Of a stretch of DNA of 64,000 bases, positions 6,405 to 28,172 are shown piece by piece (positions within the stretch are counted from its first letter, which is position 1; each line of letters begins with the position of its first letter). The notes beneath the pieces were generated by a model. The model made no database searches and was not told the origin of the DNA. It saw only the letters and a list, made by a program, of their open reading frames with translations. Where the stretch lies: NCBI RefSeq assembly GCF_000419525.1, contig NZ_ATTE01000001.1, forward strand, positions 1,302,001 to 1,366,000, given 5' to 3'. Source of the DNA: Leucothrix mucor DSM 2157 (GTDB taxonomy: Bacteria > Pseudomonadota > Gammaproteobacteria > Thiotrichales > Thiotrichaceae). The position numbers were made by a program, and so were the translations under genes.

Positions 6405-6435
6405 TCCTTCCCCTCGTGGTTTTCTAAATTAGGCG

Positions 6436-6754
6436 TTAGCCCATCACGGTAACAACAATATTGCGGTTAAAGCGGCTGGTGCGGTGCTCATAGAGGTAAA
6501 TACCTTGCCAAGTTCCAAGCGTGGCTCGTCCATTAGCCACGGGCACCATTAGGCTGTCATTGGTGAGAATGCAGCGGATATGGGCCGACAGAGCCAAGTA
6601 TACTGGCCTTCAAGTGAGCAGGGAGGTCATCAGGCCCTTCAAGTGTATGCTTGTAGTAAGGCTCGTTTTCTGTAAATTGGCAGAGAACTTCATCTGTGAT
6701 GATATGAAACCCTCTAGACCTAGGCTCAAGGTCAATCTCTTTCTGTATCCACAT
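6436..6754 (-). pseudogene. Broken YjbQ/UPF0047 family gene
   Basis: Read from 6754, the frame begins like intact YjbQ proteins (MWIQKEIDLEPRSRGFHIIT) but jumps after about 27 residues to NEPYYKHTLEGPDDLPAHLK. About 50 residues of the family core, including its HTSAS segment, are therefore missing. The frame then stops at 6557. A second frame continues with AHIRCILTNDSLMVPV and the normal C-terminus (LGTWQGIYLYEHR ... VVTVMG) to a stop at 6436-6438. The segment around LPAHLKASILG seems to be present twice in diverged form, so the locus may be a recombined join of two paralogues. Intact family members are about 135 residues. Confidence 0.8.
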
Positions 6755-6947
6755 ATGACGACCATTAGCGTGACGTTAGTGGAGTAACATTATCATAGTT
6801 AGTCCTGAATTTATCTGAGGAAATCCGTTCATTGTTTTGCAGGTAATTATCAAAAAATAATTGATACTGATTCAGTGGTCAGTCGGTTTATCATTTAATG
6901 TGTGAGTATTATTGTGCACTCATACCCAACTACTAAGAGATCAAGTA

Positions 6948-8012
6948 ATGAAAGCTGTAGGTTATTTAGAATCCAAAACGATCGATCAAGCAGATGCTTT
7001 ATTAGATATAGAAATACCAACACCTGAAGCATCTGGTCGTGATCTACTAGTTAATGTCGCAGCGATTTCCGTCAACCCAGTTGATACTAAAGTGCGTATG
7101 CGTGCCGCTGGTGAAAATGGCCAGCACAAAATCCTAGGCTGGGATGCTGTCGGCGAAGTCGTTGCTGTCGGTGGTGACGTGGAAAACTTCAAGGTTGGTG
7201 ATCAAGTTTGGTATGCCGGCGACATAACACGCTCAGGCTCTAATGCTGAATTTCAGTTAGTAGATGAGCGTATTGTTGGACTGAAGCCAACTTCATTATC
7301 TAACACTGAAGCAGCCGCGATGCCTTTGACTGCGATCACTGCATGGGAGCTATTATTTGCGCGTTTAGGGTTTAACCCACAGTTACCAGCGGATATGACA
7401 CAAGACAGTACAGCGCAAGCAATTGATCCAGCAGCACCAGCGCCTTCTATTTTGATTATGGCAGCGGCAGGTGGTGTAGGTTCTATCCTGACTCAACTTG
7501 CGAAGCAGCTAACTAACGCAACCGTGATCGGTACGGCATCGCGTCCAGAAAGTCAGGAGTGGGTGAAAGAGCTAGGTGCTGATCATGTGATTAATCACCA
7601 TGAGCCACTATTGCCGCAGTTACAAGCACAGGGCATTGAAAACGTGAGTCACGTGATTAGTCTGACGCATACCGACCAGCATTATGAACAGCTGATAGAA
7701 GTGTTAGCACCACAAGGTAAGCTGGCATTGATTGATGATCCTGAGCAACCATTGGATGTGATGAAGCTAAAAGGTAAGTCGTTATCATTGCACTGGGAGC
7801 TGATGTTTACGCGCTCTATGTTCCAAACATGGGACATGCAAAAGCAGCATGACTTGTTAACGAATGTGGCGCAGTTGGTGGACAAAGGTGTTCTGAAAAC
7901 GACATTGGGTAAAAGCTACGGCAGCATCAATGCAGAAAACCTTAAGCAGGCACATGCACATATTGAAACGAACCAAGCGGTAGGTAAGGTTGTTTTGGAA
8001 GGCTTTGCTTAA
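6948..8012 (+). CDS. Zinc-type alcohol dehydrogenase-like / quinone oxidoreductase (MDR superfamily)
   Basis: A 354-residue medium-chain dehydrogenase/reductase. The N-terminal GroES-like domain contains SVNPVDTKVR and GWDAVGEVVAVG. The Rossmann domain carries the glycine motif in MAAAGGVGSILTQLA. Catalytic-zinc Cys/His ligands are absent, as in the ZADH/quinone-oxidoreductase branch that reduces quinones or enones with NADPH. I chose the ATG at 6948, where family members begin (MKAVGY), rather than an in-frame upstream GTG/TTG codon. The DNA before it (6790-6947) has no other gene. A LysR gene follows convergently. Confidence 0.85.
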   Translation: MKAVGYLESKTIDQADALLDIEIPTPEASGRDLLVNVAAISVNPVDTKVRMRAAGENGQHKILGWDAVGEVVAVGGDVENFKVGDQVWYAGDITRSGSNAEFQLVDERIVGLKPTSLSNTEAAAMPLTAITAWELLFARLGFNPQLPADMTQDSTAQAIDPAAPAPSILIMAAAGGVGSILTQLAKQLTNATVIGTASRPESQEWVKELGADHVINHHEPLLPQLQAQGIENVSHVISLTHTDQHYEQLIEVLAPQGKLALIDDPEQPLDVMKLKGKSLSLHWELMFTRSMFQTWDMQKQHDLLTNVAQLVDKGVLKTTLGKSYGSINAENLKQAHAHIETNQAVGKVVLEGFA

Positions 8013-8036
8013 GCGTTTGCTTGAACTGGCGATATA

Positions 8037-8063
8037 ATGCAGGGGGATTCTAATCCCCTGCAT
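8037..8063. terminator. Hairpin between convergent genes
   Basis: ATGCAGGGG at 8037-8045 and the following ATT pair with AATCCCCTGCAT at 8052-8063, with one bulged G. The hairpin lies 25 bp after the oxidoreductase stop and overlaps the last codons of the convergent LysR gene. There is no strong T-run, so termination is plausible but not certain. Confidence 0.5.
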
Positions 8064-9003
8064 CTAGTACATCTTTCTGCAAAACCCCTTTCTCTATCAA
8101 CGCCCGTAGCGTCTCACCACATTTTTCCTTTAACGCATCTCGCAACAGCCTTGCCGCAGGTGTAATTGACTGCCTACTCGGGAATACCAACCACAACTCG
8201 GTCGCTGTTGGTTTGTACGCTGGCAACAGGTTCACCACATTACCCTTGAGTAAATCGACAGACATATCCAGGCACGACTTCATTGCAACTCCTTTTCCTG
8301 CCACGCACCAACGCCTCACCAAATCACCGTCATTAGATGCGCGATTCCCTTTCATTCTGATCTTATGGTGCTCATCATCTTTGGTAAATTCCCAAGCATC
8401 ATGGACGATGTCATGTAATTGATAAAACAGTCCATTGTGCGATAATAAATCATCGGGGTGTTCAGGAGTGCCATGCTTGTTTAGATAGGATTTTGTTGCG
8501 CACAATAAACGCGGCGCATTACAAATTTTGAAGCCGTAAACACCTGACTCACTGGGTGCGTCGTAGCGCAACGCCATATCTACTGCATCACGGTAAAAGT
8601 CGATATTGCTATCGCTGATATTGGTACGTAGTGTGAGGTCAGGGTGAGTGTCCATAAACTCATCTAGCCACGGTATTACTAAATTACGTCCAAAGTCGGA
8701 AGACACCGCCAGGCGTAATTCACCTCCAATAGTATCGAGTCCATCTCGGATGTTGTGTTTAGCCTGATCTAGCATGACAACCGCTTGTTCACATTGAGGA
8801 ATATAGCGTTCGCCTGCGCTGGAAAGGCGCAATTGGCGTGTAGTGCGGACAAATAGGTCTGCGCCCAAGGACTTTTCGGTTCGCTTAATAGCGGCACTTG
8901 CGGTAGAGGTGCTCATATTCAAATGCCTTGCAGCAGCGGTAATGCTTCTAAACTCTGCAACTTTCAGCACGATTTTAAGATCTTCTACTAGCATATTGTC
9001 CAA
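8050..9003 (-). CDS. LysR-family transcriptional regulator
   Basis: A 317-residue LysR protein: helix-turn-helix at about residues 5-62 (FRSITAAARHLNMSTSTASA) and effector-binding domain from about 92. It is divergent from the small monooxygenase gene at 9109 and convergent with the MDR oxidoreductase at 6948. In CrgA-like LysR loci such neighbours are usual targets, so either may be regulated. The 105-bp divergent gap contains ATAAT/ATTAT half-sites (9013-9017 and 9027-9031) that could belong to an operator; this is weak. Confidence 0.85.
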   Translation of the reverse strand: MDNMLVEDLKIVLKVAEFRSITAAARHLNMSTSTASAAIKRTEKSLGADLFVRTTRQLRLSSAGERYIPQCEQAVVMLDQAKHNIRDGLDTIGGELRLAVSSDFGRNLVIPWLDEFMDTHPDLTLRTNISDSNIDFYRDAVDMALRYDAPSESGVYGFKICNAPRLLCATKSYLNKHGTPEHPDDLLSHNGLFYQLHDIVHDAWEFTKDDEHHKIRMKGNRASNDGDLVRRWCVAGKGVAMKSCLDMSVDLLKGNVVNLLPAYKPTATELWLVFPSRQSITPAARLLRDALKEKCGETLRALIEKGVLQKDVLDAGD

Positions 9004-9108
9004 TTTATTTTGATAATGATTCCAATATTATGCTGTTTATCGGGAGTAAAACAAGGGCTAATATACTTCCACTGATTCATTACTAACACCCATCTCGGAG
9101 ATGAGAAA

Positions 9109-9399
9109 ATGGCTAAATTAACAATTGTTGCAAACATCAAAGCAAATGAAGATAAAATTGATCTAGTAAAGGCTGAGCTACTAAAGTTGATTGATATTAC
9201 GCGCGCTGAAGAAGGTTGCATTAACTACGACCTACATCAGGATAATGAAAACCCTGCACACTTCATGTTTTATGAAAACTGGGAGTCTCGTGAACTTTGG
9301 CAGACTCACATGGGTAATCAGCATTTGGCTGACTACATGGCTGCGACAGAAGGTTCAGTAGCTGAGTTTATCTTGAATGAGATGACAGTAATCGCTTAA
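9109..9399 (+). CDS. Putative quinol monooxygenase (ABM family, YgiN-like)
   Basis: A 96-residue single-domain protein of the antibiotic-biosynthesis-monooxygenase fold. Family hallmarks are TIVANIKANEDKIDLVKAEL, the EEGCINYDLHQD segment and FMFYENWES, then HMGNQHLADY. Members are dimeric cofactor-free oxygenases acting on quinols or aromatic polyketides. A GGAG ribosome site lies 8 bases upstream, inside a small palindrome (9091-9103). It is divergent from the LysR gene at 8050 and closed by a terminator. Confidence 0.85.
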   Translation: MAKLTIVANIKANEDKIDLVKAELLKLIDITRAEEGCINYDLHQDNENPAHFMFYENWESRELWQTHMGNQHLADYMAATEGSVAEFILNEMTVIA

Positions 9400-9432
9400 T
9401 CTCTGCACTCACGCAAAGATAGAATCACATAG

Positions 9433-9469
9433 GCCGCTCTTGTTTAAAGCAAACAAGCGCGGCTTTTTT
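9433..9469 (+). terminator. Intrinsic terminator after the ABM monooxygenase gene
   Basis: GCCGC (9433-9437) with TTGTTT pairs with AAACAA and GCGGC (9459-9463), followed directly by a run of six T. It lies 33 bp after the stop codon. Confidence 0.85.
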
Positions 9470-9489
9470 CTAAATGAAGGTTAGATAGT

Positions 9490-9882
9490 ATGAATACTCG
9501 ATTTGATCACATATCTTTAAGTGCGAAAGACCCGGAAGGTATGCGGGATTTTCTGTGCGCTTTGCTGGATCTGCGTGCGGGAGACCGCCCCGGATTCTCC
9601 TTTGATGGTTATTTCTTATTTTCCGGTGATGAGGATCTGATTCATATTTTTGGTCGCTCAGACGATGATAAAATATCAGATAAACTAGGTTTGGCTGAGC
9701 AGAACATTGTGCATCATGTCAGTTTTTACAGTGATGATTATACTGAAACCAAGAAACGTATTGATAAATTAGGTCTACAACATGTGACTTATGATGTTCC
9801 GGGATCTGATGTAAAACAGCTGTTTGTGCGTGCTCCGGAAAACCTATTAATCGAAATTCAGGCAACACCTAAAACGCTATGA
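9490..9882 (+). CDS. VOC/glyoxalase-fold protein
   Basis: A 130-residue vicinal-oxygen-chelate protein with the paired beta-alpha-beta-beta-beta modules of the fold. It starts FDHISLSAKDPEGMRDFLCAL, has a second metal-side segment NIVHHVSFYSDDYTETKKRI and ends LLIEIQATPK. His and Glu at the usual chelating positions (DHI, HHV, IEI) are present, so it could bind a divalent metal. Substrate unknown. Its stop overlaps the start of the 2OG-dependent oxygenase gene (ATGA), which implies co-translation and a shared pathway. Confidence 0.8.
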   Translation: MNTRFDHISLSAKDPEGMRDFLCALLDLRAGDRPGFSFDGYFLFSGDEDLIHIFGRSDDDKISDKLGLAEQNIVHHVSFYSDDYTETKKRIDKLGLQHVTYDVPGSDVKQLFVRAPENLLIEIQATPKTL

Positions 9883-10652
9883 ATACTACAACATCACCGT
9901 TTTACATTGCTGCCCGTGAATCCGGTAGTACATCCAGTGACCTGCCACTATGGGCAAGTCGTACCGAAAACCCTTTGCCACTACATGCACAAGCCCAAAA
10001 ATCTGTTGAGCGGGTTGAGGTGGAAAATGTTCCGGGGGCGTTTCAGTTGTTGGATGTGTTAAGTGCTGATGAGTCAGCTGCATTTCTGAGTGCGACTGAT
10101 GAGATGGGATATACCGAAGATGCTGCGGTGTCTCTGGGGCGTCATATCCGCCACAACAATAACTTGAACTGGATTATCGACACGACGACTGAACGGATGA
10201 TATGGCAGCGAATCCAGCCGGTGTTTGATCGTGCTGATCCCAATTTTGGAGGATATACGCCTCTAGGCTTGAATCAACGTTTTCGTTTCTATCGTTATGG
10301 TGTCGGTGACTTCTTTAGTTTCCATACCGATGGTTCTTGGCCGGGGAGTCAGGTTATTGATGGCAAGCTTGTTGCCGATGCGTTTGGTGATCGTTATAGC
10401 TTGTATACCTTGTTGGTCTTTTTAAATGATGATTTTGAAGGAGGGGAGACACAGTTTTTGATTGATCCTGATGATTCGGGTAAACCGGCACGGAATCCGA
10501 ATCAGGCTAATATTTCTAATGTGAGAACACCCGCTGGTAGTGTTTTGTGTTTTCCGCATGGTACGCATCCGCTTCATTGTCTGCATGGTTCGGCGAAGAT
10601 TACTGCGGGTGTTAAGGATATTATCCGGACGGATGTTTTGTTTAGCCTTTGA
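9879..10652 (+). CDS. 2-oxoglutarate/Fe(II)-dependent oxygenase (prolyl 4-hydroxylase-like)
   Basis: A 257-residue protein whose second half is a double-stranded beta-helix oxygenase core. It has the iron-binding HxD in SFHTDGSWPG (about residue 150) and the distal His in HGTHPLHCLHGS, with the 2-oxoglutarate-binding Arg in IIRTDVLF. FNDDFEGGETQF-like text (LNDDFEGGETQFL) is typical of P4H-type enzymes. The first 50 residues look like a linker with no domain. It overlaps the VOC gene by four bases. Hydroxylation of a protein or small molecule is likely; the substrate cannot be inferred. Confidence 0.85.
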   Translation: MNTTTSPFYIAARESGSTSSDLPLWASRTENPLPLHAQAQKSVERVEVENVPGAFQLLDVLSADESAAFLSATDEMGYTEDAAVSLGRHIRHNNNLNWIIDTTTERMIWQRIQPVFDRADPNFGGYTPLGLNQRFRFYRYGVGDFFSFHTDGSWPGSQVIDGKLVADAFGDRYSLYTLLVFLNDDFEGGETQFLIDPDDSGKPARNPNQANISNVRTPAGSVLCFPHGTHPLHCLHGSAKITAGVKDIIRTDVLFSL

Positions 10653-10677
10653 TGATGTGCCAGCCTTCCTAGCTAGT

Positions 10678-10712
10678 TCTCCTGTTACTGATTAGCTAGC
10701 AGGAGAGTTTTA
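10678..10712 (+). terminator. Possible terminator hairpin
   Basis: TCTCCTG (10678-10684) pairs with CAGGAGA (10700-10706) and is followed by GTTTTA. A nearby TAGCTAG repeat allows an alternative pairing. It lies about 25 bp after the oxygenase stop. Confidence 0.5.
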
Positions 10713-10790
10713 TGCTTGCGAGATGTAATTGCTACATCCCGCAACTTTTCATGCATCTGCTGGATGAGTTGCGTTTAAGTTTGGCGTAGA

Positions 10791-12971
10791 ATGCGCCTCA
10801 TGAATCAACAAATACCTTTAACCCGCGACGTGGTTTTAATCGGCGGCGGACATACGCATGCATTAGTATTGCGCAAATGGGGCATGTCTCCTTTGCCGGG
10901 CGCACGGCTGACCGTGATTAATCCGGGGCCAACAGCGCCTTACAGCGGCATGTTGCCGGGCTTTGTTGCCGGGCATTATTCGCGCGATGAGCTGGATATT
11001 GATCTGGTGCGACTGGCACGTTTTGCCGGTGCGCGGGTGATCATGGCGAAGGCCACCGGTATTGACCGCGAAGCCAAGCTGATTCATGTCAGCGGTCGTG
11101 AGTCGATTGCGTATGACATTGCTTCGGTGGATGTGGGTATTCATTCTGAGATGGGCGAGATTCCAGGTTTTAATGAGCACGCAGTTGCCGTGAAGCCATT
11201 GGATGTACTGAGTGAACACTGGCCGCGTTATTTAAATCAAGTACAAGGCACAACTGACTTAGCCGTGATCGGTGGCGGTGTGGCCGGTGTTGAAGTGACG
11301 CTGGCGATGATGCATGCGCTACGCACTCGCAATGTGACGGCCAATATGAGCCTGATTGATTCGGGTGAGATTTTGGGTGGCGTTGCGCCTCGCGCCAAGG
11401 CGAAGTTACTGGAGCGACTGGCTGACTATAAGGTGACTTTACTCCCCGATAGCAAAGTGGTTGAGATCACCGCTGATAGCATCAAGCTGGAAAGTGGCAA
11501 GTCGATTGCCTCTGAGTTTACATTGGGCGCTGCCGGTGCTCGCCCTTATGGCTGGCTCGCGAAGCTCGGGCTTGAGCTGCATGATGGCTATATTGTGGTG
11601 GATGAGGTGTTACGCTCCAGTGATCATGCGATTTTTGCGGCAGGGGACTGTGCGCATTTGCTCGGTCATCCCCGACCCAAAGCCGGCGTGTTTGCCGTGC
11701 GTGAAGCGCCAGTGCTGTGGCATAACCTGAAAGCGGTGCTGAGTGGCAAGCAGCTACAACCATTCCGTCCCCAAAAGGATTATCTGAAACTGATTTCGTT
11801 AGGCAGCCAGACTGCCTTGGCGGAGAAGTTTGGCTATGTCATTTCGGGCAATGCGCTATGGCGCTGGAAAAATATTATCGATCAGAAATTCATGGCGAAG
11901 TTCTATGAATATCCTGCGATGAAGGTTGAGAAGCTCCCCACAGAGCTGGCCTTAGGTGTGATGGATGTGCTGGCCGATGGCAAGCCCATGTGTGGTGGTT
12001 GCGGTGCGAAAGTCGGGCGTGATGTGCTGTCGGCGGTATTGAAACGCTTGCCACATGCCGAGCGTGATGATGTGTTATCCCGACCCGGTGATGATGCTGC
12101 GATTATGTGTTATGGCGATCAGTATCAGGTGATTACCACCGACCATTTACGTGCCTTTACTGAAGATGTTGCACTACAGGCGCGGATTGCTGCGGTTCAT
12201 GCCTTGGGCGATATCTGGGCAATGGGCGCACAGGCTCAAACGGTTCTCTCAACCATTATCCTGCCACGCATGTCGGCGGATATGCAGGAACGTTATCTGA
12301 CTGAAATCATGACAGCGGCGTCGGAAGTGTTTATGGCGCAAGGTGCAGAGATTGTCGGCGGGCATACCTCACTAGGCACTGAGCTGACGATTGGATTTAC
12401 CATTACCGGCATCTGTGAGCGTGAGCCGATTCAATTATCGGGTGGTCAAGCGGGTGACGTGTTGATCCTGACTAAACCGATCGGTACTGGTACCTTATTG
12501 GCCGCTGAAATGACTATGAAAGCGCGCGGTGAAGATGCGGTTTCGGCGTTAAATGGTATGAAGATGGATCAGGCGGCGGCTGCGGCGATTTTGCAAGATG
12601 CGCACGCAATGACCGATGTCACGGGCTTTGGTTTGGCGGGGCACTTGATGGGTATTTGTGAAGCATCGGGCTGTGGGGCTGAGCTGGACTTAGCGGCGAT
12701 TCCGGTATTGGATGGCGCTGAAGAATTGGCGGAGCAGGGCGTGCGTTCGACGTTGTATCCGGATAATTTTAGAGTGTCTGTGCAGATGGATATTGCTGAA
12801 CCTGAGAGTGCCAAAGTGACCTTGTTATTTGATCCGCAAACGGCGGGTGGCTTGCTGGCGGCGGTGAGTGCGACTAGTGCGGATGAGAAACTGGCGCAGT
12901 TGCAGGCAGCGGGTTATCAGGCGCGGAAGATTGGCGTGTTGGTTAAGGGTGAGCCATTGATCGTGGTGTAG
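10791..12971 (+). CDS. selD: Fused FAD/NAD oxidoreductase - selenide, water dikinase (SelD)
   Basis: A 726-residue two-domain fusion. Residues about 1-375 are an NDH-2/pyridine-nucleotide-disulfide-type flavoprotein, with an FAD motif (VVLIGGGHTHALVL), an NAD motif (LAVIGGGVAGVEV) and IFAAGDCAHL near 290. Residues about 390-726 are SelD, which makes selenophosphate from selenide and ATP. In MCGGCGAKVG, Cys404 and Lys407 match the catalytic Cys/Sec and Lys of SelD; the second Cys of the usual GCGCK is Ala here. Such fusions are known, with the flavoprotein thought to supply reduced selenium. No selA, selB, tRNA-Sec or selU gene is in the window. An alternative start is the ATG at 10800. Confidence 0.9.
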   Translation: MRLMNQQIPLTRDVVLIGGGHTHALVLRKWGMSPLPGARLTVINPGPTAPYSGMLPGFVAGHYSRDELDIDLVRLARFAGARVIMAKATGIDREAKLIHVSGRESIAYDIASVDVGIHSEMGEIPGFNEHAVAVKPLDVLSEHWPRYLNQVQGTTDLAVIGGGVAGVEVTLAMMHALRTRNVTANMSLIDSGEILGGVAPRAKAKLLERLADYKVTLLPDSKVVEITADSIKLESGKSIASEFTLGAAGARPYGWLAKLGLELHDGYIVVDEVLRSSDHAIFAAGDCAHLLGHPRPKAGVFAVREAPVLWHNLKAVLSGKQLQPFRPQKDYLKLISLGSQTALAEKFGYVISGNALWRWKNIIDQKFMAKFYEYPAMKVEKLPTELALGVMDVLADGKPMCGGCGAKVGRDVLSAVLKRLPHAERDDVLSRPGDDAAIMCYGDQYQVITTDHLRAFTEDVALQARIAAVHALGDIWAMGAQAQTVLSTIILPRMSADMQERYLTEIMTAASEVFMAQGAEIVGGHTSLGTELTIGFTITGICEREPIQLSGGQAGDVLILTKPIGTGTLLAAEMTMKARGEDAVSALNGMKMDQAAAAAILQDAHAMTDVTGFGLAGHLMGICEASGCGAELDLAAIPVLDGAEELAEQGVRSTLYPDNFRVSVQMDIAEPESAKVTLLFDPQTAGGLLAAVSATSADEKLAQLQAAGYQARKIGVLVKGEPLIVV

Positions 12972-18216: not shown

Positions 18217-18252
18217 AAAAGCCCCAATTTCTTATGAAATTGGGGCTTTTTT
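18217..18252. terminator. Strong intrinsic terminator of the efflux operon
   Basis: A 15-bp perfect stem (18217-18231 pairing with 18236-18250) with a TTAT loop. It has an A-run on the left and a T-run on the right, so it can act on both strands. It lies between the permease and the convergent GntR gene. Confidence 0.92.
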
Positions 18253-18263
18253 GACTGAGTTGC

Positions 18264-19016
18264 TTATCGAACTTCGTTGATATAGTGATAATTATCAGAT
18301 AATGCACGATGGCTGGCAGTCAGTAATGCTTGGTTTTTACTATCAAAACAAATGTCGTTGATAACCAATACTGCGGTCGGTATGTCTGCATCGCTTAGGT
18401 TCAATAAGGCGATGTCTTCTGTGTTGGCAATGTCCGCTTTTAATGTTTCGCGTACTGCGCTAATGCGTAAACGATATTCGTCACGTAAGTTGTTCAATAG
18501 TAAGGCTGGAACCTCATCTGGCGTAGTTGGAAAATTCGGAACAAGGTGTTCGGGGATAGCGATATGGTCAATCATAACGGGTGAATGGTTGTGTAAGCGC
18601 ACCCGAAGCAAGGAAATAACATTGCTTTTCTCATCGAGACGCAAGTGGTGCCTCTCGTCATCTGTTGCTGGCCGTACTTCTACGGATTTAGTAATGGTCT
18701 GGGTGTTGATTAATTCGTTGTTGATATTATGCAGTCGGTAGTATTTGTAAAAACGATCGAGTGTGTGGAGGGGGGTGCGGCCTGTCACAACAGTACCAAT
18801 GCGAGGCTTTCGTAGCAGTACACCTTGCTTCGTGAGGATCTGTAAGGCCTGACGAGCCGTTCCATAAGAAACACCCAACTGTCGAGCTAGTTCTGTCTCT
18901 GCGGGAAGAATATGCCCCTCAGGCCACGTGCCATCTAGGATAAGCTGCATTACCCGATCCTTAACCTGTTCGTACAATGGCGTTGTAGCTAATGTGCGTC
19001 CAATGCTGTCACTCAT
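18264..19016 (-). CDS. GntR-family transcriptional regulator (HutC/UTRA type)
   Basis: A 250-residue regulator when started at the ATG at 19016, which has an AGGTAGG ribosome site; an upstream in-frame start would add 27 residues that look non-coding. The N-terminal winged helix holds PLYEQVKDRVMQLILDGTWP and LARQLGVSYGTARQALQ. The C-terminal part (about 85-245) is a UTRA ligand-binding domain. It is divergent from the M20/ABC-transporter operon and most likely controls it; palindromes at 19091-19123 are candidate operators. The inducer is presumably the imported compound or its hydrolysis product. Confidence 0.88.
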   Translation of the reverse strand: MSDSIGRTLATTPLYEQVKDRVMQLILDGTWPEGHILPAETELARQLGVSYGTARQALQILTKQGVLLRKPRIGTVVTGRTPLHTLDRFYKYYRLHNINNELINTQTITKSVEVRPATDDERHHLRLDEKSNVISLLRVRLHNHSPVMIDHIAIPEHLVPNFPTTPDEVPALLLNNLRDEYRLRISAVRETLKADIANTEDIALLNLSDADIPTAVLVINDICFDSKNQALLTASHRALSDNYHYINEVR

Positions 19017-19090
19017 CTTAAGACCTACCTTTGATATCATATTTTTTAAACATCCTCGTTTAATTATATAGTTAATTTTAAAAATGTGTC

Positions 19091-19123
19091 GTAACAATAT
19101 TTGTTACATTTCAAAAAATGAAA
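19091..19123. promoter_or_regulatory. Candidate GntR operator (two adjacent palindromes)
   Basis: GTAACA (19091-19096) and TGTTAC (19102-19107) form a perfect inverted repeat with a 5-base spacer. It is followed at once by TTTCA/TGAAA (19109-19113 and 19119-19123). Both lie in the AT-rich divergent gap between the GntR gene and the transport operon, the expected place for autoregulation and operon control. That GntR binds here is inference. Confidence 0.6.
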
Positions 19124-19227
19124 AATAAAAAATATTAATCATTATAAATCAATAGTTTATTTTGTATTTTTCTGTGTATCAAAAAATATGGCTTGCAAAA
19201 AACATGATATTTCATTCTTATATAGGA

Positions 19228-20472
19228 ATGAAAAGACTAAACATAAATCTTGATGAAGATGCTTTGCTGAACATGCTAAGTGAGCTTGTTGCGTTAGATA
19301 GTTCTTTTCCTCCGGGATCGAGTTATCCAGAAATGGCGACACTGCTTGAACAGATGACAGCGCAATTTGGTGGAACTCAAACCCGAGTTGATGTTCCTGA
19401 AGCCTTGTGGAAAGTACCCGGCAGCCATGGTGCGCGAACGAATTTAATTGTGCGTCCAGATTTAGCCCCGGCGGGCTCCCCTGAAGTCACTATTTACTTC
19501 CATGTGGACACCGCACCTGTTGGCGATGGTTGGACAAAACCCGCTTTTCAAATGACGTGCGAAGGTAACAAAGTATATGCACGCGGTGCTGCCGATATGA
19601 AAGGTGCAATCGCAGCAGCTTTAGCAGGTCTTGAAGCATTACGTGCAGCGGGTCATTCATTTAAATATCAACCGGTACTGGCATTTTGCACTGACGAAGA
19701 AGGCGGTGTTTATCCGGGGATTCGCTACCTAGCCGAACAAAATCTTGTCAGTGATACCATTATCAACCTAAACGGCTCTGCGACCCCGCGTATATGGGCT
19801 GGTAGCTTTGGATCCTTAGACTTCTCATTTGAATTTGAAGGTAAAGCGGCGCACTCAGGTCGCCCCGAACTAGGCATCAATGCTATTGAACAAGCTTTAC
19901 CCGTCTTGAATGCCCTCACGAAGCTGAAATCGACCGTCGAACAACGCACGTCTGCTATGCCAGCGCCGCCGGGAGCAACCGAGCCGTTGCATGCTTTGCT
20001 CAATATCACAGCCATTCATGGCGGAGAGAAAGGATCTGCACTTCCCGGTACTTGTCAGGTAGTCATCAATCGGCGCTATGCACCGGAAGAAAATGTCATA
20101 GCCGTTCGCTCGGAGATAGAAGCTTGCGTAGCGGCTGCGGTTAAGGATTCAAATCTTATTGGGTGGACTATGTCTGAAGTAGGGCATTTACCTCCTGTAG
20201 AAAACACACAGGGTGTCCTGTCCCCCCGTTGGACTGCGGCCATGTCTGCTGGTTATAACGTGCCACTGGATGAGTTCGTGGCGTTTGGATCAACAACATC
20301 ATCAGACTTCGGTTGGATACAGCAAGCGGGTGGTAAGTATCGTGAAATCATGCTGGGTGGTCTATCGCGACCAGACCGCAATGTTCATGCTGCTGATGAG
20401 TTTACGACGAAAGAAGACCTACTGGGTTTAGCACTATCGATCGCATTGTTTTTCAGTGCGGATTTTGGTTAA
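19228..20472 (+). CDS. M20-family metallopeptidase/amidohydrolase (ArgE/DapE type)
   Basis: A 414-residue M20 protein if started at the ATG at 19228, the only start giving a family-like N-terminus; ATG 19204 is an alternative, and neither has a good ribosome site. Metal and catalytic residues visible are His92 and Asp94 (HVD), Asp123 (GAADMKG), Glu157-Glu158 (TDEEGG) and His387 (NVHAADEF). The acidic ligand usually found in a GEP segment appears as NLNGSA (Asn182), so one metal ligand may be missing. The dimerisation domain with GKAAHSGRPE is intact. As first gene of the transporter operon it probably hydrolyses the imported amide or dipeptide. Confidence 0.88.
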   Translation: MKRLNINLDEDALLNMLSELVALDSSFPPGSSYPEMATLLEQMTAQFGGTQTRVDVPEALWKVPGSHGARTNLIVRPDLAPAGSPEVTIYFHVDTAPVGDGWTKPAFQMTCEGNKVYARGAADMKGAIAAALAGLEALRAAGHSFKYQPVLAFCTDEEGGVYPGIRYLAEQNLVSDTIINLNGSATPRIWAGSFGSLDFSFEFEGKAAHSGRPELGINAIEQALPVLNALTKLKSTVEQRTSAMPAPPGATEPLHALLNITAIHGGEKGSALPGTCQVVINRRYAPEENVIAVRSEIEACVAAAVKDSNLIGWTMSEVGHLPPVENTQGVLSPRWTAAMSAGYNVPLDEFVAFGSTTSSDFGWIQQAGGKYREIMLGGLSRPDRNVHAADEFTTKEDLLGLALSIALFFSADFG

Positions 20473-20521
20473 AAATCAATGAAATAAGACCAACTTTGAC
20501 AGATCAGGAGCATCAAAAGCC

Positions 20522-22084
20522 ATGAAACATCAACTAAATAGACGACAAATGCTTAAACTATCAGCGGCTAGCGCAGCTGTTGCTTTAACTTGCGGCATAT
20601 CGGGTGTATCAGTAGCAGCAATGAGAGCGGATAACACACTGAGATTAAGTGTGAATATTACCCCTGGGGTTTTGAACCCGATGTTGGCGCGTGCAGCCGC
20701 AGAATATATGATGTCTGAAATGCTTTATTCTGGCCTGACATCACTAGGCACTGATATGACGGCACAGCCAGATTTGGCAACAGACTGGTCATCTAATGAT
20801 GATGCGACGCAATGGCGTTTTACCTTGCGCCAAGGTGTAAAATTCTCCAACGGTCAAGCATTGACATCAAAAGATGTGGTTGCCTCACTTCAGAAACTAC
20901 TTGATCCAAAAACCGGTGCACCCGGTCGACGTAACCTTGGACCTATCAAGCTAGTCGAGGCGGACGGCGATTACACCGTGATTATCACCACTGAAACGCC
21001 TTTTGCTGACTTACCTGTTGCGCTGACTTACCCAACGGCCAAGGTGGTTCCTGCTGACATTATCGCAACGGATTTTGACAGCCTTGCGCAAGTACCTGTT
21101 GGCTCTGGCCCATTTAGATTAAAAGAGTTTCGAGTCGATGAAATTGCGATTTTGGTGAAGAATCCTGAGTATTTTGTTGAGGGCTTACCGTATTTGAATC
21201 AAGTCGAAGTCAAAACATTCCCTGATGCAGCAGGCTCTACGGCGGCACTATTGGCAGGCGAAATCGACATGATTCATGACGTGCAGTCTACTGACTTTGC
21301 ACGCATTGATGGCTCTGCTGGCGTGAGCGGACTGCGCACACCGTCAGGACGTTTCCTTGATGTGGTGATGGACACAACCGTTGCGCCTTTCGATAATATT
21401 TTGGTCCGCGAAGCGTTGTCTTACTGTGTCGATCGCGAAGCCATGATTGAATTGGTTGCTGATGGGTATGGGACAGCGGGTAACGATAGTCCAATTAATG
21501 CGGCTTACCGTTATTACGCTGATGCACCGCATAAATCTTATGATCCAAAGAAAGCGAAAGCGCTATTGGCCGAAGCAGGCTATCCAGACGGCTTGGAGCT
21601 TGAGTTGATTGCATCCGTAAAGCCTGGCTATCGCTCGACAATGGCGGTTGTACTGCGCGAGATGGCGAAGCCTGGTGGCTTTAATATCAATGTGAAGACA
21701 ATGGATCACTCGACTTACCTTGATCAGGTTTGGAAAAAAGGCAAATTCTATGTTGGTTTCTACAACATGATGCCAACCGAAGGTATGTCATTTAATTTGC
21801 TATTTACCTCCGGCGCTTCGTGGAATGAAACGAAATGGAACAATAAAACCTTCGATGAATACGTACGACTTGCGGATGAAACAACTGACCCAGAAAAACG
21901 TATGGAGCTTTATGCCAACGCTCAGGCATTGATGCAAAAAGAAGTCCCCGCATTGATCCCATGCTTCTTCGATATTCTTGGCGCAAAAGCAGATTACGTG
22001 AATGGCTATGAACAGCACCCACGCGGCGCGAGTTTTGCATTCCATAAAGTTTGGGTTGGCGCTAACGCTCCCGCAAAAAGCTAA
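20522..22084 (+). CDS. Periplasmic peptide/nickel-type substrate-binding protein (SBP_bac_5)
   Basis: A 520-residue solute-binding protein of the DppA/OppA family. It has a Tat-type leader (NRRQMLKLSAASAAVALTCG, cleavage after SVAA or close). The mature domain contains the family segments LATDWSSNDDATQWRFTLR and FSNGQALTSKDVVAS, then VPVGSGPFRLKEF and the C-terminal ALIPCFFDILGAKADYVNG. The family carries di/oligopeptides, nickel chelates or glycosides. Its place between an M20 hydrolase and DppBC-like permeases points to a peptide or N-acylated compound. Tat export suggests folding before export. Confidence 0.92.
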   Translation: MKHQLNRRQMLKLSAASAAVALTCGISGVSVAAMRADNTLRLSVNITPGVLNPMLARAAAEYMMSEMLYSGLTSLGTDMTAQPDLATDWSSNDDATQWRFTLRQGVKFSNGQALTSKDVVASLQKLLDPKTGAPGRRNLGPIKLVEADGDYTVIITTETPFADLPVALTYPTAKVVPADIIATDFDSLAQVPVGSGPFRLKEFRVDEIAILVKNPEYFVEGLPYLNQVEVKTFPDAAGSTAALLAGEIDMIHDVQSTDFARIDGSAGVSGLRTPSGRFLDVVMDTTVAPFDNILVREALSYCVDREAMIELVADGYGTAGNDSPINAAYRYYADAPHKSYDPKKAKALLAEAGYPDGLELELIASVKPGYRSTMAVVLREMAKPGGFNINVKTMDHSTYLDQVWKKGKFYVGFYNMMPTEGMSFNLLFTSGASWNETKWNNKTFDEYVRLADETTDPEKRMELYANAQALMQKEVPALIPCFFDILGAKADYVNGYEQHPRGASFAFHKVWVGANAPAKS

Positions 22085-22102
22085 AGTACGGGGCGTCTGA
22101 AC

Positions 22103-23050
22103 ATGACTATTTCTTATGTAATAAAACGACTCATCTATTTAGTGTTTACCGCTTTGTTGGTCTCTCTGATTGTGTTCAGCGTCACGCAGCTTTTGCCAGC
22201 TAACGCAGCGACAATGATCCTTGGTGAATATGCCACGGATGAATCTTTGGCTATATTAAACAATAAGCTGGGGCTCAATGACCCAGCGATCGTTCAATAC
22301 CTGCGTTGGTTGGGGAATGTGGTACAGGGGGATTTTGGTATCTCCCTGCGTACTAGTCAGCCTGTTGGGCCGACGATTCTGGAAGCGTTTGGACGATCAG
22401 CCATTTTGGCGGTCATATCACTGGTACTGGTTTGTATTATCGCGATTCCACTGGGTGTTTTAGCCGCGGCTCGTCGCGGTAAAAAAACAGATCTTGGGGT
22501 TTCTTTAGTCTCTTACATCGGCGTCAGCATGCCAGAATTTGTGTTGGCGACGTTGTTATTAGTGTGGCTGGCAAGCCCGTCTGTTGGGCTTTTTCCTGCC
22601 TCCGGTTATGTCCCTTTCTCAGAAGATTTCTGGGGAGGATTGCATCATATCGCGCTCCCTGTAATGACCTTGACGATTGTATTAACGGCGCATATTAGTC
22701 GAATGATTCGCTCTGAAATGGCAGACACGCTGGAGATGGATTTCATTCGGGCGGGTCGCTTACGGGGACTCTCTAAACGACGTGTATTGTTTCGTCATGC
22801 GCTTCGCAACTCGATGTTACCAGCCATCACCGTGATCGCCTTGGATGTGGGTTATTTAATAGGTGGCGTCATTGTGGTGGAAGAGGTGTTTGCTTTTCCC
22901 GGTGTGGGTCGACAGTTGATATTAGCCATACAAAATCGCGATTTGCCGATGATACAAGCCGGTGCGCTTATCATGGCGGCTTCTTATGCTATCGCCAATT
23001 TGCTAGCTGACTTGGCATATGGTGCCCTTGATAAAAGGATTAAATACTGA
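22103..23050 (+). CDS. ABC transporter permease (DppB/OppB type)
   Basis: A 315-residue inner-membrane permease with about six membrane helices, starting with the typical YVIKRLIYLVFTALLVSLIV and continuing LGLNDPAIVQYLRWLGNVVQGDFG. The EAA cytoplasmic loop, which contacts the ATPase, is in DFIRAGRLRGLSKRRVLFRH. It pairs with the next permease to make the channel. Its stop and the start of the next gene share bases (TGATG at 23048-23052), so the two are translationally coupled. Confidence 0.93.
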   Translation: MTISYVIKRLIYLVFTALLVSLIVFSVTQLLPANAATMILGEYATDESLAILNNKLGLNDPAIVQYLRWLGNVVQGDFGISLRTSQPVGPTILEAFGRSAILAVISLVLVCIIAIPLGVLAAARRGKKTDLGVSLVSYIGVSMPEFVLATLLLVWLASPSVGLFPASGYVPFSEDFWGGLHHIALPVMTLTIVLTAHISRMIRSEMADTLEMDFIRAGRLRGLSKRRVLFRHALRNSMLPAITVIALDVGYLIGGVIVVEEVFAFPGVGRQLILAIQNRDLPMIQAGALIMAASYAIANLLADLAYGALDKRIKY

Positions 23051-23889
23051 TGCTCTTTTTAATAAAAACACTTCGCGCGTTAATGCGTAGCCCACAAGGT
23101 GCGGTGGGTACGGTACTGGTTTTCTTGTTATTGTTGATCTCTGTATTTGGCCCATTGCTCGCGCCACAAGACCCTGAAAGCTTTAACTTTGGCGCTCGCT
23201 TTGAGCCACCATCGGCTGAGTTTCTGTTTGGTACCGACTGGTTTGGACGTGATTTGTTCAGCCGGGTTTTAGTCGGTGCTCGCTCTACGGTTCTGCTGGC
23301 GATACTAGCAACGTTTATAGGGACTGCGTCTGGTGCCTTGATCGGTATTTTTTCTGGCTTTGTTGGCGGATGGGTTGATGAACTTATCATGCGAACCATT
23401 GATGCCATCATGGCGATTCCCGGTTTACTACTGGCACTGATGATATTAACGGTGCTTGGCTCATCAAGCCTGAATGCTGTGATTGCCATTGGTATTGCGT
23501 TTGCGCCGGGTATGGCACGGATTTCACGCTCCACCACATTAGCCGTGCGTGAGCTTGATTATGTCTCTGCAGCACGTGCTCGTGGGGAAGGTAAATTGTG
23601 GATCATTTTTGCAGAAATTTTGCCGAACATGGTAGCCCCCGTCATCGTTGAAGCGACCATTCGTGTGGCCTTTGCCATTATGACACTGGCAACTTTGTCT
23701 TTCTTAGGATTAGGCGCTCAACCACCTTCTCCTGAGTGGGGCTTAATGATTGCTGATGCGCGCGAACACATGTTCCGTAGCCCTTGGCCAATTCTCGCTC
23801 CCGGTATTTCCATCGCACTGGTGGCCATTGCATTCAATCTTCTTGGGGATGGTTTGCGTGATGTGTTGAACCCTCATTCACAGGAATAA
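23050..23889 (+). CDS. ABC transporter permease (DppC/OppC type)
   Basis: A 279-residue permease with about six helices. It has the FGPLLAPQDPESFNFGARFEP segment and the LFGTDWFGRDLFSRVLVGAR hallmark of the OppC family, and the EAA loop in DYVSAARARGEGKLWI. It forms the second half of the translocation channel. The ATPase gene follows after four bases. Confidence 0.93.
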   Translation: MLFLIKTLRALMRSPQGAVGTVLVFLLLLISVFGPLLAPQDPESFNFGARFEPPSAEFLFGTDWFGRDLFSRVLVGARSTVLLAILATFIGTASGALIGIFSGFVGGWVDELIMRTIDAIMAIPGLLLALMILTVLGSSSLNAVIAIGIAFAPGMARISRSTTLAVRELDYVSAARARGEGKLWIIFAEILPNMVAPVIVEATIRVAFAIMTLATLSFLGLGAQPPSPEWGLMIADAREHMFRSPWPILAPGISIALVAIAFNLLGDGLRDVLNPHSQE

Positions 23890-23893
23890 AACT

Positions 23894-25924
23894 ATGACGC
23901 AGACAATGGTATTAGACATAAAAGATTATAGTCTGACTTATCAAACGCAGTCAGGTCCGATACGTATCCTTGAAAACATCAACCTCCAAATTGCCAAAGG
24001 TGAAGTGTTGGGGCTGGTTGGTGAGAGTGGCTCTGCTAAGTCTTCCCTTGCGTATTCTGTGATGCGTGATTTACCGGGACAGGTAGAGTCAGAAACAGGC
24101 ACTATGTGGTTAAAAGGTGAAGACCTAAGGGCCATGAATGAAGAGGAGCTAATGCAGCGCCGTGGAAAGCAGATCTCCATGGTTTTCCAAAATGCCGCAA
24201 CAGCATTGGACCCGACTCAATCGCTGGGTGATCATGTCGTGGAGACGCTGCAGGCGCATCAAACAGTCAGTAAACAGGATGCACTTAAACGCGTGTATGA
24301 GTTATTTGAGCTTGTTGGTTTGCCTGATCCTAGCTTGATGGCGCAAAAGTATCCGCATGAAGTATCTGGTGGTGAAAAACAGCGCGTTGTTTTAGCCATG
24401 GCTATTTCTTCCGACCCGGATTTAATTCTGTTTGATGAGCCAACCTCAGCACTAGACGCCACAACAGCTGTGAACATGTTGGATTTGTTTGCTGAAATGC
24501 AGAAAAAAATCGGCGTTGCCGGGCTGTTTATCAGCCATGACTTAGGCGTTGTTGCTGATGTTGCAGACCGTGTTGCTGTGATTTATGGTGGCAGAATTGT
24601 AGAAGTGGCGACAGTAGAGGATTTATTTGCTAATCCACGGCATCCTTATACTCAATTGTTGTTGGCCAGCCTACCCAGACCTTCAGATATTAGAAATAAA
24701 CGGGGTCTTAGGATTGACGAAGGCACACCACCCCCACGACGTGGCGAGGTTCCTAGTTGTAATTTCTCTCATCGTTGTCCTAAGTATGATTCAGCAATCT
24801 GTGATCAATCTCGTGTGCTTTTAGAGGTACAAGGAGATCGTAAACTGGCTTGTGTCAGACCCGATGTTGTCATTGAAGATACACTAGTGAATGCATCGGA
24901 TATTTTACCGGCGGCAACAGACGTTGTTATAGAAGTAAAAAACCTAACAGTGAAGTTAGGTCGGACCTCACTTTTAGATCAATTACTCAAAAAAGCGCCT
25001 ACGCAGGTTCATGCTGTTAATAACATCGACCTCAAAATTCACCGTGGCGAAACGGTCAGTTTGGTTGGAGAGAGTGGCTGTGGTAAATCAAGCCTAGCCC
25101 GTGCGCTGGTTGGGCTAAACCCATTTGAAGGTGAGTTACGTTTGAATGGACGAGATATCAAAACCTTGGATGCGGCTTATCGTGCCGATGTTCAAATCAT
25201 TTTCCAGAACCCTGATAGCTCGTTGAACCCCAGGCACACACTAGAAACTATCTTGTCACGGGCGATTAAGCTTTACCGCCCTGAGATTGCTAGTGGACAA
25301 CGGAGTGAAGCGATTCAAAAACTGCTTGAGCAAGTGCGTTTACCTGCACACTACCGTAAGCGTTACCCGCATCAATTATCGGGTGGTGAGAAGCAGCGAG
25401 TTGCCATAGCTCGTGCGATTGCCGCAGACCCTAAAGTCATTATTTGTGATGAAATCACCTCTGGGCTTGATGCGGCGGTGCAGGCCGCGATCGTCACTCT
25501 ATTGCGTCAAATTCAGCAAGAGACGGGTGTCGCGTTACTGTTCATTACCCATGATCTTGCGATCTTACGTCATATTGCTCATCGAACGGCGGTTATGTAT
25601 TTAGGCGAAATCATAGAAACGCGTTCAATCGCGGGACTTGATCATGCGCCTTATCATCCCTACACAGAAGCGCTTTTGTCTTCTGCCAGTAGCCCTGATC
25701 CAAATACCGAAACACGCCAAGTGCGGCTTAAAGGCAGTTTGCCAGTACGAACCGCGTTGTTATCTGGATGTGGTTTTGAAAGCCGTTGCCCTAGACGCAT
25801 TGGCGATATTTGCCATCAGCAACCGCCTCCAATGAGGTCGATTGCTGAAGTATCCCACCTTTTGAAGTGTCATCATGAAATTGCTGACCTCGAACAAATT
25901 GAACCGGTTTGGAAATTTACATGA
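23894..25924 (+). CDS. Fused double ABC ATPase (DppD-DppF type)
   Basis: A 676-residue chain holding two complete nucleotide-binding domains, each followed by the oligopeptide-transporter C-terminal Cys-rich extension (SCNFSHRCPKYDSAIC; CGFESRCPRRIGDIC). The second domain has canonical [23 protein letters not shown] and CDEITSGLD. The first has signature VSGGEKQRVVLAMA and FDEPTSALD, but its Walker A reads GESGSAKSS: Ala48 replaces the glycine before the catalytic Lys49. The first site may therefore be weak or dead while the second hydrolyses, as in asymmetric ABC proteins. DppD and DppF are often separate genes; the fused form is also common. Confidence 0.92.
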   Translation: MTQTMVLDIKDYSLTYQTQSGPIRILENINLQIAKGEVLGLVGESGSAKSSLAYSVMRDLPGQVESETGTMWLKGEDLRAMNEEELMQRRGKQISMVFQNAATALDPTQSLGDHVVETLQAHQTVSKQDALKRVYELFELVGLPDPSLMAQKYPHEVSGGEKQRVVLAMAISSDPDLILFDEPTSALDATTAVNMLDLFAEMQKKIGVAGLFISHDLGVVADVADRVAVIYGGRIVEVATVEDLFANPRHPYTQLLLASLPRPSDIRNKRGLRIDEGTPPPRRGEVPSCNFSHRCPKYDSAICDQSRVLLEVQGDRKLACVRPDVVIEDTLVNASDILPAATDVVIEVKNLTVKLGRTSLLDQLLKKAPTQVHAVNNIDLKIHRGETVSLVGESGCGKSSLARALVGLNPFEGELRLNGRDIKTLDAAYRADVQIIFQNPDSSLNPRHTLETILSRAIKLYRPEIASGQRSEAIQKLLEQVRLPAHYRKRYPHQLSGGEKQRVAIARAIAADPKVIICDEITSGLDAAVQAAIVTLLRQIQQETGVALLFITHDLAILRHIAHRTAVMYLGEIIETRSIAGLDHAPYHPYTEALLSSASSPDPNTETRQVRLKGSLPVRTALLSGCGFESRCPRRIGDICHQQPPPMRSIAEVSHLLKCHHEIADLEQIEPVWKFT

Positions 25925-25951
25925 GTTCAATATTACTAAGGAAATACCGCT

Positions 25952-27172
25952 ATGAATGGAACTGATATCTTCGATTATATCGACGTCGATTCCTGCTTAA
26001 ATTTACTTTCCTCTATGGTGCAGCATAAGAGTTATACAGAAACCGAAGGCGAGCGATTATTGGCAGGCGTGATGCACGAGCGCATGACCCAACTGGGTAT
26101 GAGCAGTGAATTACAACCCGTTGTGGACGATCGGGTGAATGCGATTGGACGCCTTAAAGGCACTGGTGGTGGGGCTAGCCTTTTATTTAACGGACACCTT
26201 GATACAAACCCAGCGACAGAGGGTTGGACGGTAGACCCGTGGTCCGGTCTGATCGACGACGAATTCATTTATGGTATTGGCGTTTCTAACATGAAGGCAG
26301 GCGATGCCGCTTATTTCTGCGCCGTTGAAACCATTCTTAAAGCAGGTATTAAGCTAAAAGGCGATGTGGTTCTTAGTTTTGTTGTTGGCGAGCTTCAGGC
26401 TGGTATAGGAACGGTTCGGGCCATCGAACAAGGGCTTCGCGCAGATTACTTTATTAATAGTGAGCCAACTGACTTGCAAGCACTCACTATGCATGCAGGC
26501 TCAATGATGTTTGATATTGAGCTAGTGGGCGATACTCGTCATTTGTCTAAACGAGAAGAGGCGTGTGATGCCTTAGCAGCGGCAACGGTACTTGCTCAAC
26601 GGATTAACAGGCTGGTTTTTTCGGGTGCAACAACACCGGATCAGATTGCTGTAAACCGAGGCCATGTCGGCTCAATGCGTGCAGGATTGGGACGTGAGTA
26701 TCACGAATGGCGACCACCGCAAGTAGCGGATCAAGCTAAACTTAAAGGCTCATGTCGCTATGCCCCAGGTCAAACCATTGAGAGCGTTACGAATGACTTA
26801 GAATTGTTGTTGGAAGCGCTTAAGCTGGAATACCCAAAACTTCAAACATCGCTTCGAGTGGGTGGTCCAACCCCGAATGCTTTGCGAATGCCACCGTTTG
26901 AGGTAGATCGTGACTCACGCATTGTGAAGGTTCTGAACTCTGCATTTGAATCGGTGATGGGCTACGCTCAACCGACAGGCCCTATAGCTCCTGCTGCGTT
27001 TTTTGGTACGGACGCTGCGCATCTTGCCGCCGCTGGCATGGAAGGTGTTGTCTGTGGACCCGGTGGGGAATTTAATACCATGCCTGACGAACGTGTGCGT
27101 AAGCAACAGTTCTTGAATTGCGTGCGGATTTACATCCTATGCATCATTGAGATTTGTGGCGTTAGTGAGTAA
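25952..27172 (+). CDS. M20-family protein with degenerate metal site
   Basis: A 406-residue M20 homologue, last gene of the transporter operon. The fold segments are clear: FNGHLDTNPATEGWTVDP, then GIGVSNMKAGDAAYF, VVGELQAGIGT, NSEPTD and GPGGEFNTMPDERV. His82, Asp84, Glu147 and Glu171 are kept. The bridging Asp is Asn113, the second Glu of the EE pair is Leu148, and the C-terminal His is replaced near Thr376. A normal two-metal site is thus unlikely. It may be a pseudo-enzyme, bind one metal, act as a ligand-binding partner, or work with the first M20 protein, whose losses are complementary. Start ATG 25952 follows a TAAGGAAA ribosome site. Confidence 0.82.
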   Translation: MNGTDIFDYIDVDSCLNLLSSMVQHKSYTETEGERLLAGVMHERMTQLGMSSELQPVVDDRVNAIGRLKGTGGGASLLFNGHLDTNPATEGWTVDPWSGLIDDEFIYGIGVSNMKAGDAAYFCAVETILKAGIKLKGDVVLSFVVGELQAGIGTVRAIEQGLRADYFINSEPTDLQALTMHAGSMMFDIELVGDTRHLSKREEACDALAAATVLAQRINRLVFSGATTPDQIAVNRGHVGSMRAGLGREYHEWRPPQVADQAKLKGSCRYAPGQTIESVTNDLELLLEALKLEYPKLQTSLRVGGPTPNALRMPPFEVDRDSRIVKVLNSAFESVMGYAQPTGPIAPAAFFGTDAAHLAAAGMEGVVCGPGGEFNTMPDERVRKQQFLNCVRIYILCIIEICGVSE

Positions 27173-27213
27173 AGGTTTCGTTGGTACATCCAATGGTGTT
27201 TGGCTGTAACTTT

Positions 27214-28025: not shown

Positions 28026-28172
28026 AGTCTCATTCCATTCTTATGTGGTAATGCAGAGAGGGTGTCTAACGACACGATGAGTTTCAGTTAAAATAGATCT
28101 ATACTCAGAACATTAGCTTAAAAAACTTGAACGGGAGTTGAATCCCAACACTGATACAAGCAAGGAGGATGT

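Follow-up and report, generated by a model that had tools for sequence, protein, structure and literature searches.

The operon and its two M20 proteins

We analysed a 64,000-nucleotide stretch of the Leucothrix mucor DSM 2157 genome (contig NZ_ATTE01000001.1, positions 1,302,001 to 1,366,000), called the window below, in which a transport operon carries two genes for M20-fold proteins, here named M20a and M20b. Gene order at 18264-27172 is a divergent GntR gene, M20a, a solute-binding protein, two permeases, a double ATPase and M20b (Table 1). A first-pass annotation of this DNA had placed the M20 pair on either side of a peptide-type ATP-binding cassette (ABC) importer and had described complementary losses in the two metal sites. 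The open reading frames, their order, their coordinates and all the residues it named are as stated there, and the binding protein, the two permeases and the fused double ATPase do lie between the two M20 genes. The importer belongs to the Opp/Dpp superfamily; the term 'peptide-type' is sound as a family label, and is not shown as a statement about the substrate. Both proteins are of the M20 fold, M20a scoring 72.2 bits for Peptidase_M20 and 69.4 for M20_dimer and M20b 93.6 and 22.5 bits, against Pfam cut-offs of 24.6 and 21.

Table 1. Genes and sites of the M20 transport cassette in the window
Feature	Position	Strand	Basis or remark
GntR/UTRA regulator	18264..19040	-	Pfam GntR and UTRA; divergent from the operon
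M20a, M20 hydrolase	19228..20472	+	Pfam Peptidase_M20 and M20_dimer
Family-5 solute-binding protein of the importer	20522..22084	+	Pfam SBP_bac_5
ABC permease, Opp/NikB type	22103..23050	+	Pfam BPD_transp_1; NCBIfam Opp2B below cut-off
ABC permease, Opp/NikC type	23050..23889	+	Pfam BPD_transp_1 and OppC_N
Fused double ABC ATPase, 676 aa	23894..25924	+	Two ABC_tran and two oligo_HPY stretches
M20b, M20-fold protein of the 5NAA-A branch	25952..27172	+	Pfam, conservation, tree
Palindrome CATTCTTATATAGGAATG, candidate operator of the GntR protein	19213..19230	.	Exact match here; overlaps the proposed M20a start
Entire transferable cassette	18217..27173	.	82.8% DNA identity to L016

In canonical M20 enzymes metal one is held by a His, a bridging Asp and a third acid, and metal two by the bridging Asp, a second Glu and a C-terminal His; of the two paired Glu residues, the first acts as base. 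M20a keeps H92, D94, D123, E157, E158, H387 and the lid H209, and has N182 in place of the third acid. M20b keeps H82, D84, E147, E171 and the lid H197, and has N113, L148 and T376 where ligands of the second site would stand. Both sequences were aligned to CPG2, DapE and further members of M20, which confirmed that the altered residues sit in canonical ligand columns: N182 of M20a falls in the third-acid column of CPG2, and N113, L148 and T376 of M20b fall in those of the bridging Asp, the second Glu and the C-terminal His. Neither protein thus has the binuclear ligand set of ArgE, DapE and CPG2, M20a lacking the third acid and M20b lacking the bridging Asp, the second Glu and the C-terminal His.

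These states are constant across both families (80 M20a and 88 M20b rows, each including the window's own protein). H92, D94, D123, E157, E158, N182, G183 and the lid H209 are found in 80/80 M20a rows, and H387 in 79/80, the remaining row being truncated and without the His column. For M20b, H82, D84, N113, E147, E171 and H197 are present in 88/88 rows; L148 and T376 are present in 87/88, the exception being a distant relative, L008, with Ile and Val. The base Glu and the lid His are invariant in both families. Both site states are therefore family-defining, and reflect neither damage nor chance nor sequencing noise. As for complementarity, M20a retains the D123/E158/H387 site and M20b retains H82/E171 of the other, an assignment to the two metal sites that we take from DapE and CPG2; that part of the earlier description stands, and a common origin of the two changes does not, as shown below.

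Ancestry, selection and distribution

In a single-sequence search, the nearest solved relative of M20b was 5-nitroanthranilate aminohydrolase (5NAA-A; 3.2e-18). In a maximum-likelihood tree of 29 rows, M20b, L008, three naaA-like plasmid proteins and the 5NAA-A fragment formed one clade with support of 98/97, and the same clade without the 5NAA-A (5k8m) fragment was supported at 98/98. Seven M20b and six M20a rows entered the trees, one of each (L108) coming from outside the rows surveyed above. Forcing M20a and M20b together cost 27 log units and was rejected by the approximately unbiased (AU) test (p-AU 0.001), so that the two M20 changes arose separately. The motif agrees with the tree. Asn stands at the bridging-Asp position in 12/12 clade rows and 0/17 other rows, Gly directly precedes the base Glu in 12/12 clade rows against 1/17 others, and the third Glu is kept in 12/12. 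The base Glu is followed by Ile or Leu in the 11 rows of the clade that were tabulated, and by Ile in the 5NAA-A fragment. M20b thus belongs to the 5NAA-A branch by motif (Asn, G-E-[I/L], third Glu) as well as by grouping, and, because the Asn is shared across the clade, the change predates the M20b family. The possibility that M20b is a decayed partner of M20a is ruled out by its place in this clade and by rejection of an M20a-M20b clade.

When the 5NAA-A fragment was searched against 72,556 plasmid records, eight matches were obtained at E up to 1e-10, five of them Pantoea M20b proteins at 36% identity and three of them naaA-like proteins at 37-40%. The three naaA-like genes adjoin genes for LLM-class flavin oxidoreductases (L096 6144-9717, L097 6108-9741, L098 6676-9167) and other small-molecule enzymes; L096 and L097 also carry an isochorismatase-type cysteine hydrolase and a flavin reductase, a set that resembles the Rut pyrimidine pathway. 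Outside the clade, the rows L102 and L106 carry metal-site changes of their own, and such change is therefore recurrent within M20. The L106 protein (3031-4203) has Thr at the bridging-Asp position and Ala at that of the third acid; its gene lies beside one annotated as allantoate amidohydrolase, and, judged by these residues, it represents a further, independent M20 lineage whose metal site has changed.

Strong purifying selection acts on M20b, one of the most constrained proteins that the cassette encodes. In comparisons of the window with L015 and L016, the ratio of nonsynonymous to synonymous change (dN/dS) was 0.019 and 0.024 for M20b against 0.056 and 0.067 for M20a; synonymous differences were high (pS 0.53 and 0.57), which makes these ratios rough, and M20b lay well under M20a in both pairs. 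One permease alone was as low (0.016 and 0.021), and for L017 the ratio was not computable for most genes. Mean identity to the window protein was 63.1% for M20b and 60.4% and 62.3% for the permeases. Decay of M20b is ruled out by a dN/dS of about 0.02.

Predicted models of both proteins matched M20 folds along almost their full length, with a mean predicted local distance difference test score (pLDDT) of 86.5 for M20b and 94.9 for M20a. Against the M20b model, 3pfo gave Z 39.2 with a root-mean-square deviation (rmsd) of 4.1 over 388 aligned residues, 5k8m gave 37.9, 3.8 and 368, and 7uoi gave 37.8, 3.9 and 372; for M20a the corresponding values were 38.4, 2.6 and 395 (3pfo), 38.4, 3.5 and 374 (7uoi), and 33.6, 3.2 and 363 (5k8m). 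This ranking of predicted models agrees with the tree, without being a proof of it. Input alignments were reduced from 65 non-redundant M20a rows to 52 plus the window and then 48 plus the window, and from 43 M20b rows to 38 plus the window; the M20a of L062, truncated by a frame break, was skipped in row selection.

The distribution of the operon was surveyed by a profile search of genome contigs with a seven-row M20b alignment. This search returned 345 relatives, of which the best 80 by similarity to M20b were kept, and six plasmid loci were added; co-occurrence counts from these 86 loci are conditional on the presence of M20b. Among the 80 loci with at least 7.5 kb upstream of M20b, all six operon genes were present in 78, M20a being missing in L011 (Variovorax) and L047. 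A GntR match was likewise found in 78/80 loci, with none in L047 and L063, and that of L011 is located downstream of M20b. Full cassettes came from Alpha- and Gammaproteobacteria. Of the loci whose titles identify them as betaproteobacterial, L011 has no M20a, and L031 and L035 are cut by a contig end. Plasmid records numbered 58 with M20a and 62 with M20b, and 58/58 with M20a also had M20b. Three of the 60 M20b records listed (of 62) were without M20a, namely L011, L112 and L113; NZ_CP147998 is absent from these 60, and M20b was found in it by another search. In L011, L112 and L113 no M20a was found in the entire plasmid record at E up to 1e-40, and in L047 none in the 21-kb locus, the sole extent examined; other replicons of all four hosts were outside the search. 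The expectation that orthologous operons hold one copy of each kind was thus borne out in nearly all loci, and obligate pairing is contradicted by these four. L113 has M20b with none of the importer genes matched in its 21-kb locus, and in L112 an M24 gene occupies the M20a position in an otherwise similar operon. In the L112 variant (1479-12372, Rhizobium sp. SSA_523), which keeps M20b and the importer, M20a is replaced by two M24 matches and, as we read its sequence, by an M20 gene of the carbamoylase type together with another kind of GntR gene. On a Pseudomonas silvicola plasmid (L114 7666-16821) the operon is annotated in many short pieces, which may be an assembly error, and it was left out of the counts.

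The cassette moves between genomes. It is 82.8% identical in DNA over 9016 bp to that of Marinomonas ushuaiensis (L016), no further match was found between the 64-kb window and L016, and its ends match the Marinomonas loci sharply. Searches for M20b gave no match among the 62 other genomes available from the order (E up to 1e-30), a single match among 368 others sampled from the class (L008, at 32% identity; E up to 1e-40) and a single match among 397 others sampled from the phylum (L095, at 62% identity; E up to 1e-30). This patchy distribution among the genomes searched, together with the sharp ends, rules out plain vertical inheritance. Many hosts are plant- or alga-associated by name or source, such as Pantoea, Rhizobium, Pseudomonas viridiflava and Epibacterium ulvae; others, such as a Roseomonas from a tick and sea-water and drinking-water isolates, are not evidently so. 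Judged by host names and sources, the cassette is common to many plant- and seaweed-associated bacteria.

Many loci contain a third hydrolase. An M24 gene adjoins M20b, starting from 120 bases before to 400 after the M20b end, in 36/85 loci with downstream sequence. Two M24 proteins that were scanned carry Pfam M24 and Creatinase_N, and their best NCBIfam matches are ectoine hydrolases (DoeA), far under cut-off (122.2 and 123.7 bits against 575; 111.2 and 113.1 against 613). We take D209, D220, H280, E313 and E327 to be the M24 ligand positions of Pyrococcus prolidase; aligned to these, the L075 protein reads E230, R241, N301, E332 and S349. E230, R241, N301 and S349 are constant in 35/35 full-length rows and E332 is found in 33/35. 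Four of the five metal ligands are accordingly replaced; the fourth position, where a Glu is aligned, lies in a gapped stretch, which makes it uncertain. The M24 gene is absent from the window's cassette and from the Marinomonas cassette L015, and no close M24 partner was found in the window's genome, the best of three matches being 24% identical.

The remaining features concern regulation and transport. In the gap between the GntR gene and M20a lies an 18-base palindrome with 8 of 9 positions paired; at the equivalent place it is identical in L016 and L017 and has one base changed in L015, while 0.07 matches would be expected at up to 3 mismatches. The palindrome is probably the operator of the GntR regulator. 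Because it overlaps the ATG at 19228, the start of M20a is uncertain and may truly be Met18 (19279), which leaves the site residues untouched. A family-wide operator was not supported, the best 18-base palindromes of 77 loci averaging 6.69 paired positions against 6.49 after shuffling, in a crude scan with one shuffle per locus. A weaker copy of the palindrome, with 3 mismatches, lies at 28036-28053, past the right end of the cassette. The nearest solved sequence to the solute-binding protein is AgaA (6hlx; 165 bits against 143.5 for the next entry), which, as a sequence match, is only a lead to the substrate; 'agropinic acid' was not found in open-licence PMC papers, among the matches listed.

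Proposed function and alternatives

On balance we think it probable that the cassette spreads horizontally and serves to take up and degrade a small nitrogenous metabolite, with M20b as a working single-metal C-N hydrolase. The GntR/UTRA regulator would control a self-contained cassette whose Opp/Nik-type importer takes up one class of small nitrogen-containing molecules, to be hydrolysed in the cytoplasm. Since M20b keeps the His and acid of the first site as well as the base and has lost the second site, we expect it to work with one metal. This metal would be labile and is probably bound by H82 and E171, perhaps with N113 or D84; E147 would serve as base for attack of a metal-bound water on a C-N bond. 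M20a would be an M20 enzyme in its own right, its first site weakened by N182 and its metal probably bound mainly at D123-E158-H387, and would carry out a different step on the same family of substrates; the creatinase/DoeA-type M24 protein, probably metal-free, would supply a third step in about two fifths of loci. The C-N bonds hydrolysed are likely to be those of amides, amidines or amines. Operon, conservation, clade, selection and transfer are findings of the analysis; the number of metals, the chemistry, the class of substrate and the sequence of steps are inferred from them. Placement in a branch with a known working enzyme suggests that M20b is probably active rather than broken. By their titles, PDB entries include Mn- and Zn-bound 5NAA-A structures, and such a site can therefore hold metal. 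A passage in PMC10306065 describes 5NAA-A as the hydrolytic deaminase of its pathway, and one in PMC11903332 states that three hydrolases including 5NAA-A are thought to use routes of the nucleophilic aromatic substitution (SNAr) type, via metal hydroxide or covalent aryl esters, with no route assigned to each individually.

Several points weigh against this proposal. When a seven-row M20b profile was used as query, 7uoi (a DapE) ranked above 5NAA-A, which came second. In the tree the 5NAA-A row fills just 38% of the columns and branches are long, and in structural alignment 5NAA-A is 22-23% identical to M20b; the top structural rows of M20b lie so close together that their ranking does not separate 5NAA-A from other branches. 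Loss of the C-terminal His in 5NAA-A is read from a non-significant tail alignment and from its relatives, and its metal ligands and one-metal state enter here as background. Finally, strong purifying selection would fit a binding or scaffold protein as well.

Such a role was raised in the first-pass annotation. The reading that M20b is a pseudoenzyme, one that binds, scaffolds or regulates for the importer or M20a, is possible and ranks second to the enzyme reading; we consider it unlikely. The loss of three canonical ligand positions speaks for it, and so does conservation of M20b at the level of the permeases. It is weakened by the invariance of Glu147, the presumed base, and of His82, Glu171 and the lid His197 in a highly constrained protein, and by the occurrence of the same Asp-to-Asn and Glu-to-Ile/Leu changes in 5NAA-A, an enzyme. 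The companion suggestion of a hetero-oligomer, taken to mean that M20a and M20b each need the other for activity, is very unlikely. Near-constant co-occurrence and site losses in opposite directions would suit it, but M20b is found at L011, L047, L112 and L113 without M20a nearby, the AU test points to separate origins, and the naaA-like genes share the M20b state with no M20a in their annotated neighbourhoods. With the M20b losses shared by the 5NAA-A branch, the main motive for the idea is gone. Furthermore, in CPG2 and DapE structures all M20 metal ligands come from one catalytic domain, and because of this one subunit cannot supply the ligands missing from the other. As an obligate state and cause of the site losses, the hetero-oligomer was supported by neither tree, distribution nor AU test.

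It is also quite unlikely that the locus is an ordinary operon for uptake of oligopeptides or dipeptides with its peptidases. In its favour, the importer is of the Opp/Dpp superfamily and M20 and M24 are peptidase folds, but all three hydrolase families have altered metal sites, M20b groups with a small-molecule hydrolase, and cut-off was reached by none of the NCBIfam matches listed for the M20 pair (25 of 47 and 25 of 34) or for the two scanned M24 proteins.

Our proposal of a nitrogen-metabolite cassette can be taken further, in a version that we offer tentatively and would not yet bet on: an as yet undescribed catabolic pathway passed among plant- and seaweed-associated bacteria, which would import a nitrogenous metabolite of plants or algae and dismantle it with three peptidase-fold enzymes, each without a classical metal site, M20b being a natural single-metal C-N hydrolase on a non-nitroaromatic substrate. 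If this were true, chemistry of the 5NAA-A type would extend beyond one xenobiotic-like compound. The seemingly broken M20 site is seen here to be a stable, widely shared design. The substrate, if found, would show which host metabolite these bacteria compete for. According to a passage in a Rhizobium transcriptome paper (PMC3333776), the alfalfa rhizosphere induces transporters of the peptide type whose solute is unknown, and a second such paper (PMC11547076) gave no match to the terms used; no paper on the operon itself was found within the open-licence PMC literature and the terms used, among the matches listed. The most useful products of the analysis are a testable catabolic cassette and a clade signature (HLD, N at the bridging-D position, G-E-[I/L], a retained third Glu and no C-terminal His) for an M20 branch annotated so far as M20 metallo-hydrolases or acetylornithine deacetylases.

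Comparison with known systems

The importer resembles Opp/Nik ABC importers in having a family-5 binding protein, two permeases and a double ATPase, and the ATPase exceeds some cut-offs, such as those of NikD (388.7 against 318.7) and NikE (388.2 against 332.55), with scores that sum the two halves of the fused protein. In contrast, the binding protein and permeases fall below the cut-offs of all NCBIfam equivalogs listed. M20a shares with the binuclear enzymes of the ArgE/DapE type the fold, the dimer domain and six of the seven site residues checked, and its structural alignments reach Z 38.4; it differs in the Asn at the third-acid position in every row surveyed (80/80) and in scoring 168.9 bits against a cut-off of 217.6 for the DapE-ArgE subfamily. 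The M24 protein is like DoeA and creatinase, enzymes that work without metal, in its replaced metal ligands and, for the two scanned proteins, in its top NCBIfam match, whereas the window's cassette has no M24 gene.

The closest parallel is that between M20b and 5NAA-A (PDB 5k8m-5k8p); entry 5k8p carries a mutation at Arg289. Both have the M20 fold, the HLD motif, Asn for the bridging Asp, G-E-[I/L] instead of the E-E pair, and the third-acid Glu; no C-terminal His appears in the tail alignment, which holds for the relatives and is non-significant for 5NAA-A itself. However, in 5NAA-A, its three relatives and L008 the GE[I/L] motif is followed by an insert that is absent from M20b, and M20b, unlike 5NAA-A, is nearly always tied to an ABC importer.

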